A stretch of 64,000 bases of DNA, from NCBI GenBank assembly GCA_017624955.1, contig JAGAMA010000002.1, positions 1 through 64,000 of the forward strand, given 5' to 3'. Source of the DNA: Alistipes sp. (GTDB lineage Bacteria; Bacteroidota; Bacteroidia; Bacteroidales; Rikenellaceae). Each line of letters starts with the position of its first letter. Position 1 is the stretch's first letter. Below, piece after piece: positions 56,885 to 59,227 of this stretch. A program made the translations under genes and the position numbers. The notes beneath the pieces were generated by a model. It saw nothing but the letters and a program-made list of their open reading frames with translations. It was not told where the DNA came from and searched no databases.

Positions 56885-58588
56885 CTACTCCTTTGCCGGC
56901 TCGATGTAGAACTCGAAGATTAGCGGGCTGTAGGACGGAATCTCAGTCGAGGTGGTCGTCGTGACTACCTCCTCCTCTGTGTCGTAGGAGTTGTAGTAGT
57001 TGCCGTAGTAACCGCTGTAGTAGGGGTCGTAGTAACCGCCACCGTAGTACGAGTCGTAGTAGTTGCCGTAGTAGCCACCGTAACCGCCATAGCCACCATA
57101 GCCGCCCATACCGCCGTAGCCGTAGTAGGAGTTGTAGTAGTTATAGTAGTTCAGGTAGTTCAGGTAGTCGTAGTAGCTCGACGAGTAGCCCGACGACGAG
57201 CTGCTGGTCGCACCATTCTGACCCGATGCACCGTAGCCGAAGGTCGAGGTGGTGATCAGCGCGCCCCACTGGCCGAAGCGCATCGTGGGAATCGTGTAGT
57301 AGAAGGCCTCGATCAGACCGCCCTCCTCGGGCGTGTACTCCAGGGCCGAACCCTTCGATACCACCTCGCCGTAGATGATCTCCTTCACCTCGTCGATGTT
57401 CGTGTCGAAGATAAAGCCGTCGAGGAATCGACCGATGTACCAAATCTTCGCCTTGCCCGAAAGACCCACCGAGTCGGCACCCTCCTTGACCAGCTCCTCG
57501 ACACCTGCATAGGGCTCGTCGCTGTGGAAGCGCTCCTTCAGTGCCTCGGCAATCTTACGATTCAGTTCCGATACCGAACCCTCGCTGACATAAGGCTCCA
57601 TGCCGGCGACATAGGGGCCGTACTTTACCTGGCCGTAGGTGGGGTATTTGTTATCCACGGTCGATACCTTCTGGTTGAAATCCAGGTCGTAGATCATCTC
57701 CTCGGGGGTGGTCGTGGGATCGAAACGGTGGTTTACATAGAGCTGTGCAATCGTGTCGCAGGCACTCACCCAACGGTTTGCGTTCAGGTGGGGATGGTTC
57801 GTGTCCTCCATCGTCGTGGGGATTGCCACCAGCTCCACGCCCTCGACCTCGGTCGTCTGCTTGTTCTCGCCCTTGTCGTCCTTCGTCGTGTAGATCATCA
57901 GACCGCCGTTGGCCTTGCAGAAGGCATCTACATCGAGTGCCTCGCGCTGCAGGGGGTTCTTTACCGTGTCGCAAATCTCGATCGTGGCGATGAAGGGCTT
58001 GCCCTCCTCGAGCGCAAACTGACCCTCGTAACCGCCATCGCCGCCTACCGAACCCGTCACGCGCGAAGGCATGTAGAGCATCACCTCCGAGCCGATGCGC
58101 AGCAGGTACTTCTCGTCGCTCAATCCCAGCTCGGCACCCTTCGCAGCCAAAAACTCGGCACCGAGCTTCTGCTCCTTACGCATCGCAAGCCAGGTGCCCT
58201 CGTTGAGCGTGTAGAAGGCATCGCCGCAATACATATAATAAGGTACATAGTGCGTGTACTTGGTAAACGAACCTGCCAGCTCCGCCTCACGGGCGTTGCG
58301 CGTCAGGATGATGTTACCCTGCAGGTCACGACCCGTGAGGTTGAAACGTACCCAGCAGATCGTGTCGTTGAGCGGCTTGGCTTCCGTGTCGCCCGCATTG
58401 AGGATATCGAGGTAGTAGCCGCGCTTGTCATAATCCTGGTAGTTGTCCTTCAGCTCGGGGCGATGCTGCGAGATCCAGGCCTTGAGCGAAAGGTCCTCGT
58501 AGTAGTCGTAATCGTTTGCCGTCTCCTTGGCGCAGGCCGTCATCAGAAGCGCCGCTACGGCAATCGTGAACAGTTTTTTGAATTGCAT
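56885..58588 (-). CDS. Two-domain FKBP-fold lipoprotein with a Tyr/Gly-rich insertion
   Basis: 567 residues. Lipobox MTAC (Cys19). The first FKBP-like domain (about 78-206) opens with ICWVRFNLTGRDLQGNI and ends KPFIATIEI. The second (about 380-564) opens with IWYIGRFLDGFIFDTN, continues GLIEAFYYTIPTMRFGQWGALITTSTFGYG, and closes with IPSYSPLIFEFYIE. Between GYGASG and IPSYSP, where FKBPs have a short loop, is a low-complexity stretch (about 457-536) of Tyr, Gly, Ser, Asn and Asp with almost no charged or aliphatic residues. Peptidyl-prolyl isomerase or chaperone activity in the envelope is likely from the fold. Relatives include GldI-like lipoproteins. It follows 58616 by 27 bases. Confidence 0.82.
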   Translation of the reverse strand: MQFKKLFTIAVAALLMTACAKETANDYDYYEDLSLKAWISQHRPELKDNYQDYDKRGYYLDILNAGDTEAKPLNDTICWVRFNLTGRDLQGNIILTRNAREAELAGSFTKYTHYVPYYMYCGDAFYTLNEGTWLAMRKEQKLGAEFLAAKGAELGLSDEKYLLRIGSEVMLYMPSRVTGSVGGDGGYEGQFALEEGKPFIATIEICDTVKNPLQREALDVDAFCKANGGLMIYTTKDDKGENKQTTEVEGVELVAIPTTMEDTNHPHLNANRWVSACDTIAQLYVNHRFDPTTTPEEMIYDLDFNQKVSTVDNKYPTYGQVKYGPYVAGMEPYVSEGSVSELNRKIAEALKERFHSDEPYAGVEELVKEGADSVGLSGKAKIWYIGRFLDGFIFDTNIDEVKEIIYGEVVSKGSALEYTPEEGGLIEAFYYTIPTMRFGQWGALITTSTFGYGASGQNGATSSSSSGYSSSYYDYLNYLNYYNYYNSYYGYGGMGGYGGYGGYGGYYGNYYDSYYGGGYYDPYYSGYYGNYYNSYDTEEEVVTTTTSTEIPSYSPLIFEFYIEPAKE

Positions 58589-58615
58589 ATCTTCGTGTCG
58601 TTTTTTTCGTTTCGG

Positions 58616-59227
58616 TTACTCCACCTTGTCGATGGTGAAGAAGTAGGCGATGGGGGACTCCTTGGGGATGAAGTTCATCAGCTCCTTGTCGCCGTAGGCC
58701 ATCGTGTAGGTCATATAGCTCTCGACCGAGTCCTGCTCACGGCAGCCAATCAGCGAGAGGCGAAGCCCCGGGATCACTTGGTCCGTTGCCAGGTTAATCG
58801 TGAGCGGCTCAAACTTCCAGCCACCCGGCGTGAGCCCCACGTTTTCGCTCTCGAGCGAGGCCTGCAACAGCGGATCGTTGGTCCAGAAGGGCATCGTCAG
58901 GCGCGAACCGTCGGTAACGATGTTGCGGAACTCGAAGAGGTAGGCGCGGAAGGTGATCGTGACGATCGACTGCTCCGTGACCTCTTTGCGCGTGGCGCGG
59001 TCGGGGTTGTAGGCACCGTCGATGTAGCGATAGACCGTGTTGCCGAACTGCTCGTAGTAGGGCTGCTCGGTACCCGTCTCGACATCCTCCACGGCGACCA
59101 GGCGGGGCTGGTGGGTCGATTTGAGGTACTGCACCATCTTCTCCTGCTGCTTGGGGAGAATCTCCTCCTCCTTCGAGCAGGCAACGAGCATCAGGAGTGC
59201 TGCGGCTATGATCGCTAAGTGACGCAT
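58616..59227 (-). CDS. FKBP-fold lipoprotein (GldI-like)
   Basis: 203 residues. Lipobox LVAC (Cys17). After a charged N-terminus the fold begins at VTITFRAYLFEFRN (about 90) and runs to QVIPGLRLSLIGCREQDSVESYMTYTMAYGDK and IPKESPIAYFFTIDKV, the layout of an FKBP (G....A...M..G......P...AYG....IP..SP..F...). Several active-site aromatics are replaced, so isomerase activity is uncertain. First gene of a two-gene transcript with the Tyr/Gly-rich protein. Confidence 0.72.
   Translation of the reverse strand: MRHLAIIAAALLMLVACSKEEEILPKQQEKMVQYLKSTHQPRLVAVEDVETGTEQPYYEQFGNTVYRYIDGAYNPDRATRKEVTEQSIVTITFRAYLFEFRNIVTDGSRLTMPFWTNDPLLQASLESENVGLTPGGWKFEPLTINLATDQVIPGLRLSLIGCREQDSVESYMTYTMAYGDKELMNFIPKESPIAYFFTIDKVE

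Follow-up and report, generated by a model that had tools for sequence, protein, structure and literature searches.

A tyrosine-rich insert in the FKBP flap of a conserved Alistipes lipoprotein, a candidate client-capture arm of an envelope foldase

The second FKBP domain of a 567-residue Alistipes lipoprotein carries, at its flap, an insert rich in Tyr, Gly, Ser and Asn that is conserved among relatives and resembles in composition the EL3 loop of BamA. The gene lies in the window, by which we mean the whole stretch of 64,000 nucleotides that was analysed (Alistipes sp., contig JAGAMA010000002.1, assembly GCA_017624955.1). We consider it possible, with a probability of about 0.42, that the protein is an envelope foldase whose flexible flap arm would hold unfolded clients beside a prolyl-isomerase site, possibly at BAM. 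A Tyr/Gly low-complexity arm at the FKBP flap would be a new foldase design, the insert-in-flap FKBPs described in the parts of the literature covered here being carriers of folded chaperone domains. The original prediction knew of no described FKBP of this kind in gut bacteria, and in agreement with this, among the titles listed by our literature search, which extended neither to preprints nor to most subscription journals, none dealt with a Tyr-rich flap of an FKBP from Alistipes or its relatives.

Gene and domain architecture

Reading of the open frames in the window gave a lipoprotein with two FKBP-like domains, the first separated by a linker from the second, which runs from about residue 340 to the end of the protein (Table 1). 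On the window protein Pfam FKBP_C scored 19.1 bits (E 0.0017) against a curated cut-off of 21.1. A profile of 23 relatives (A1) found solved FKBPs with a best E of 4.4e-5, and the tandem FKBPs of the order were matched by domain 2 at 99.7% in hhalign. Domain 1 of the window protein gave no Pfam match on its own and no match when compared directly with domain 2 (hhalign 0.1%); it was related to the first half of the order's tandem FKBPs at 99.4% (E ~1e-21). An hmmscan of the protein against NCBIfam matched no model up to E 10.

Table 1. Coordinates of the features of the locus within the window
Feature	Position	Strand	Evidence
Tandem-FKBP lipoprotein gene with insert	56885..58588	-	Open reading frame; matches across the genus
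Lipoprotein signal peptide, residues 1-19, lipid-anchor Cys19 (MTAC)	58532..58588	-	Sequence reading; Cys19 invariant in 67 aligned rows
FKBP-like domain 1, about residues 55-215, without insert	57944..58426	-	Profile match
FKBP domain 2, N-terminal part, about residues 340-456	57221..57571	-	Pfam FKBP_C, residues 379-460
Tyr/Gly/Ser/Asn-rich insert in FKBP flap, residues 457-549	56942..57220	-	Composition, selection
Tyr-rich core of insert, residues 457-536	56981..57220	-	Composition
Rest of FKBP domain 2, residues 550-567, last strand with PLIF	56888..56941	-	Alignments; LxF flap boundary per PMC11013033
Partner gene, 203-aa FKBP-like lipoprotein	58616..59227	-	Pfam FKBP_C, E 3.7e-5, above cut-off

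The pocket of FKBP12 is lined by Y26, D37, W59, Y82 and F99. We take Y384, D395 and Y452 of the window protein to be the counterparts of Y26, D37 and Y82. Among 67 aligned rows Y384 is invariant and D395 and Y452 are kept in at least 90%, position 429 holds F or W by eye, and F558 is present in at least 90% of the 23 rows of the smaller alignment. Judged by these alignments, the FKBP-type prolyl-isomerase pocket of domain 2 is conserved.

The lipobox is present, and the six residues that follow the lipid-bearing Cys in the window protein (AKETAN) include one acidic residue, while at least two are found in 51 of the 68 orthologues parsed. At least two acidic residues among these six constitute the surface signal of Bacteroidota lipoproteins, according to the part of the source available (PMC12578637). 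The window protein falls below this number, which counts against a surface location; we hold such a location to be probable.

In some relatives the tandem-FKBP protein continues C-terminally beyond its FKBP domain into additional sequence (L274 and L276 of genus g155, L278-L283 and L288 of g152, and L261 of g157), which in g152 and g155 contains motifs such as VWVTGYVNGVV and GNIRKY. A 564-residue open frame antisense to both FKBP genes of the window (57524-59218, plus strand) gave one weak Pfam match (E 0.21, under the cut-off) and is probably a shadow ORF.

Composition and position of the insert

The predicted composition of the insert, some 80 residues of Tyr, Gly, Ser, Asn and Asp splitting the second FKBP domain, was borne out: residues 457-536 comprise 30 Tyr, 19 Gly, 12 Ser, 8 Asn and 4 Asp, together 91% of the stretch, and lack K, R, H, E, F, W, I, V and C altogether. 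These boundaries describe the core correctly; by alignment the full low-complexity stretch is slightly longer (457-549, 93 residues). With the remainder of the protein as the background for Tyr (33/487), the binomial probability of at least 30 Tyr in 80 residues is 2.6e-15, and the next Tyr-richest 80-residue stretch among all open frames of at least 100 residues in the window holds 12. The sequence GYGASG begins at residue 451 and IPSYSP at 550, with GGYGG at 495 and 501 and YYGNYY at 506 and 527 between them. The coding DNA contains short imperfect repeats only, the longest array by copy number being 5.8 copies of 9 bases. A DNA pattern for YYxxYY found six matches in the 2.1-Mb genome of the window (93.5% complete); since the backward control found five, this count is not an excess, and the telling point is that all six fall inside the insert. 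Searches of plasmid and phage records for a mobile origin of the insert protein gave no match.

The insert lies between GYG (451-453) and LIF (556-558), and the last FKBP strand, PLIFEFYIE, comes C-terminal of it. The flap or insert-in-flap of FKBPs is bounded by (A/G)YG and LxF, as described in the portion of PMC11013033 consulted. The window protein has its insertion between (A)YG and LxF, in the flap (80s loop), which is where SlyD has its chaperone domain.

Conservation and selection

Matches to the gene were obtained in 59 of the 61 genomes of the genus, that of the window included, and in all 26 whose completeness is 90% or more and whose contamination is 5% or less. From a wider set of 115 relatives with named records, titled mostly Alistipes and in some cases Rikenellaceae or Bacteroidales bacterium, 80 loci were kept. 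Every one of these named Alistipes/Rikenellaceae loci (80/80) carries the insert, among them those of Alistipes montrealensis kh20, Alistipes sp. An66 and A. muris DSM 112343. The insert pattern parsed 72 of the 76 full-length proteins, the other four being read by eye, and four further loci cut by contig ends show the insert wholly or in part. In the 72 parsed proteins the insert measures 65-101 residues and contains 14-33 Tyr. Its conservation extends to individual positions: N480, Y489 and Y506 are invariant in the 67-row alignment, and Y478, Y481, Y484, N486, Y488, G493, Y510, Y511 and Y524 are present in at least 90% of the rows.

In seven pairs with near relatives the dN/dS of the insert was 0.13-0.51, compared with 0.12-0.33 for the body of the protein, and each pair kept 26-28 Tyr, of which 3-12 showed a synonymous codon change. 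The insert is under purifying selection, with its Tyr codons held by synonymous change.

These data bear directly on the original prediction. The placement of the insert in a lipoprotein conserved among relatives is upheld by the signal-peptide Cys19 and by the 80 loci. A sequencing or assembly artefact, the first of the objections considered there, is contradicted by the presence of the insert in records of named strains, and absence from all relatives, the second, by its presence in all 80 named loci. Evidence against an artefact or a repeat expansion comes likewise from the invariant columns, the dN/dS values and the shortness and imperfection of the repeats. In one MAG (G008; L042:3953-5692, L006) the open frame passes from the insert into unrelated sequence where the contig ends, while a different contig (G008:C10) holds a further piece of the insert; the low-complexity insert may break assemblies.

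Distribution in the family and the order

In a survey of 100 Rikenellaceae genomes from 17 genera, the gene was matched in 97 genomes and 16 genera. We read 52 family regions, 51 of them outside the genus of the window, and the insert was seen in 4 of the 16 genera read. A Tyr/Gly/Asn insert is present in 15 of the 52 regions (10 from the genus coded g2, four from g157 and one from g158). The six other g2 genomes read have a Ser/Thr/Tyr insert with little Gly or Asn, so that the Tyr/Gly/Asn make-up is not kept everywhere. The flap is short and without insert in 31 of the 52 regions, one of which belongs to the window's own genus: this 1.3-Mb congener genome (G338) keeps the FKBP gene with a short flap (L317, AYGAYGAEATETHAAVQGYESL), and in it the Tyr-rich insert was lost or never present.

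When mapped on a BamA tree with 72 rows (four from outgroups, the others being 68 of the 80 regions fetched from Rikenellaceae; a quick tree with SH-aLRT support only), the presence of the insert requires three changes, and all insert-bearing rows fall in one clade of 45 (SH-aLRT 99). An order-level search matched the protein in 15 of 198 genomes, 12 of them outside the family, and none of these 12 proteins has the insert on reading.

The partner gene and the relation to BamJ and BamK

Directly upstream lies the gene of a smaller FKBP-like lipoprotein, whose mature N-terminus after the signal peptide is CSKEEE. It is adjacent in 77 of the 78 loci with room for it, and the exception has a homologue elsewhere in the fetched stretch. 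A similar gene pair without the insert exists outside Rikenellaceae. BamK was tried as an identity for the partner; the hhalign value of 94.5% obtained at full length fell to 26.7% once signal peptides were removed, and we do not call it BamK because the likeness is carried mostly by the signal peptide. At another locus (L128:218-2607) three FKBP-like lipoprotein genes stand in a row (178, 181 and 377 residues), the first of them GldI-like.

In the genome search the window protein scored 17.6 of 100 bits with the BamJ model (E 0.0037) and 7.7 of 120 bits with the BamK model (E 3.1), and it reaches the cut-off of neither NCBIfam family (NF053689, NF053690). A separate BamJ over the cut-off (115.7 bits) is encoded on another contig of the same genome. 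Three of ten tandem relatives from the order and the family (L125, L126 and L129) pass the NCBIfam cut-off for BamJ. For BamK the best match in the window genome had an E of 0.35 with a model that is a weak detector, its control being missed in 14 of 14 genomes at E 1e-5, Bacteroides included, and its own cut-off being passed in 4 of 99 order genomes. A glmM-like gene stands beside bamK in 11 of the 12 loci read (names assigned by eye); at this usual place in the window genome (L407) there is no bamK beside glmM.

Likeness to the EL3 loop of BamA

In Bacteroidota the BAM complex bears a dome at the cell surface, in which two prolyl isomerases, BamJ and BamK, are held, as far as the part of the source covered goes (PMC12578637). 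The same part of that source gives 13 Tyr for the BamA EL3 loop of B. thetaiotaomicron and 12 for that of P. gingivalis, reports that EL3, which yields no density, probably projects inside the dome that holds BamJ and BamK, and describes its function as unclear. Flavobacterium has a different dome isomerase, BamM, according to the accessible part of PMC12611786.

BamA was found in all 119 order genomes searched. In 88 of these genomes we read 89 BamA regions, in each of which the match is split near EL3 except for one case on a short contig that was added by choice, and we parsed EL3 in 77. At least 12 Tyr are present in 22 of these 77 loops and 1-10 in the other 55, a ratio that is not a random fraction since genomes with a split BamA match were chosen on purpose. 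The pooled composition of the insert correlates with that of the 22 Tyr-rich EL3 loops at r = 0.91, the sole control being the insert against its own protein body (r = 0.39), and the 4-mers YGGY, YGYG, GYGG and NYYN are common to FKBP inserts and EL3 loops. The longest Tyr/Gly BamA loop seen (L357, G125) measures 118 residues between its anchors, contains 29 Tyr and near-perfect GYGGYSPY repeats, and comes from a genome without a BamK match.

Both traits were read in 65 of 99 genomes. Of these, 17 have a Tyr-rich EL3 together with a BamK match (E up to 1e-5, 4 of 18 over the cut-off) and 45 have neither, with EL3 only in two and a weak BamK only in one; these counts are not independent because the genomes are related. 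Rikenellaceae BamA has no Tyr-rich EL3 in any of the 68 aligned rows (68 of the 80 regions fetched), where the span is 29-33 residues with at most six Tyr. Another Tyr-rich loop in the barrel was looked for in the same rows and rejected, at most nine Tyr being found per 40 residues.

A strict swap between the BamA EL3 and the FKBP insert fails within the family, in which 12 genera have the gene and neither loop, and for this reason the arm is not a required replacement of EL3. We regard as doubtful a broader reading by which the Tyr/Gly/Asn loop would be a portable client-handling module, placed at EL3 on BamA in BamK-bearing Bacteroidales and at the FKBP flap in part of Rikenellaceae, where BamA is without such an EL3 and BamK was not found with the detector described above; capture arm and isomerase would there be joined in one protein. 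A simple relocation of the loop from EL3 to the FKBP is not established. The two kinds of loop may be convergent, and common ancestry is not claimed.

Proposed function and alternatives

In the client-capture reading, the gene product would be a foldase that is lipid-anchored in the outer membrane and probably exposed on the outside of the cell. The second of its two FKBP-like domains is predicted to keep its prolyl-isomerase pocket, and in place of a flap this domain has a putatively unstructured arm, some 65-100 residues long, in which Tyr, Gly, Asn, Ser and Thr abound. Through its many Tyr side chains the arm may make weak contacts, independent of sequence, with envelope proteins that are unfolded or partly folded, and by analogy with the folded insert-in-flap domain of SlyD it would hold these clients close to the active site. 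Beta-barrels and surface lipoproteins would be the clients, met as they leave the BAM machine; in related Bacteroidales this machine carries two surface prolyl isomerases together with a compositionally similar EL3. We infer the flexibility of the arm, its binding of clients, the isomerase activity and the work at BAM, as we do the surface location, from the sequence comparisons given above. Client handling in envelope folding is favoured over adhesion because of the flap position, the likeness to EL3 and the paired FKBP-like gene. Since a loop of similar kind occurs on a lipoprotein distinct from BamA, and some natural relatives are without it, an EL3-type function becomes testable outside BAM.

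It is unlikely, to our judgement, that the insert is instead a docking element, ordering against a fixed partner such as the 203-residue lipoprotein or another envelope protein and serving complex assembly. The near-constant adjacency of the gene pair and the invariant N480, Y489 and Y506, by which part of the insert is conserved in sequence and not only in composition, agree with such a role, whereas a fixed interface fits poorly with an insert of variable length, with the 12 genera that have the gene without insert and with the insert-free gene pair outside the family.

An adhesive, cross-linking or condensate-forming surface patch, acting in cell-cell or cell-mucin adhesion, through dityrosine links or by clustering lipoproteins, appears quite improbable. 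The core does have a sticker-and-spacer-like composition, uncharged save for its four Asp; however, there is one arm per protein, it lies inside the flap of an enzyme, and it has short imperfect repeats only. Moreover, among the sequences compared, adhesins being outside the comparison, its closest look-alike is a BamA loop that probably lies inside the assembly dome, by the part of the BAM literature available. Nothing in the analysis specifically favours adhesion, Tyr cross-linking or condensates, and clustering of the chaperone is conceivable.

Very little probability is given to service in a different surface apparatus such as the type 9 secretion translocon, solved structures of which include an FKBP-type isomerase. 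The profile of the order's tandem FKBPs matches the isomerase chain of 6h3i, which we take to be a type 9 translocon, at 72.4 bits, and the GldI model matches in relatives; but the 6h3i match is widespread among FKBPs (159 sequences at E up to 0.01), and the window protein itself matches no GldI model. A near-neutral low-complexity expansion tolerated by the flap, with which the variable length, the short imperfect DNA repeats, the MAG that splits in the insert (G008) and the small-genome congener without it (G338) would be compatible, has the slightest chance of all and is disfavoured by the codon evidence, namely a dN/dS like that of the body and Tyr codons kept by synonymous swaps, as well as by the retention of the insert, with its invariant columns, at every one of the 80 loci.

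Comparison with known systems

SlyD is the obvious reference for an insertion at this site. Its chaperone domain takes the place of the flap loop and, when the substrates are partly folded proteins, increases activity up to 100-200-fold, in the part of PMC5034536 covered, and this insert-in-flap (IF) domain is folded and has a groove for hydrophobic side chains (PMC5034536 and PMC11013033, both in part). The window insert shares with the SlyD domain the same flap loop, a similar size (about 65 residues in SlyD) and a place beside a predicted prolyl-isomerase pocket. Unlike it, the window insert is of Tyr/Gly/Asn low complexity and is carried by a tandem-FKBP lipoprotein, whereas the IF domain of SlyD is folded in the sources as far as available. 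With no NCBIfam match and a core that is 91% Y/G/S/N/D, the window protein is, on sequence grounds, not assigned to SlyD.

With BamJ and BamK, which are outer-membrane surface proteins of the BAM dome in B. thetaiotaomicron and P. gingivalis, the window protein has in common that it is a lipoprotein of predicted prolyl-isomerase type. It differs from them in being a tandem, whereas their models are single-domain (184 and 199 positions), and among the BAM proteins named in the covered parts of the BAM literature there is no tandem FKBP. The BamA EL3 loop, finally, has a composition and motifs similar to those of the insert and is likewise a long loop on a participant in the biogenesis of outer-membrane proteins, if the window protein indeed acts there; EL3, however, joins two strands of the BamA barrel, whereas the window insert is borne by a predicted prolyl isomerase.
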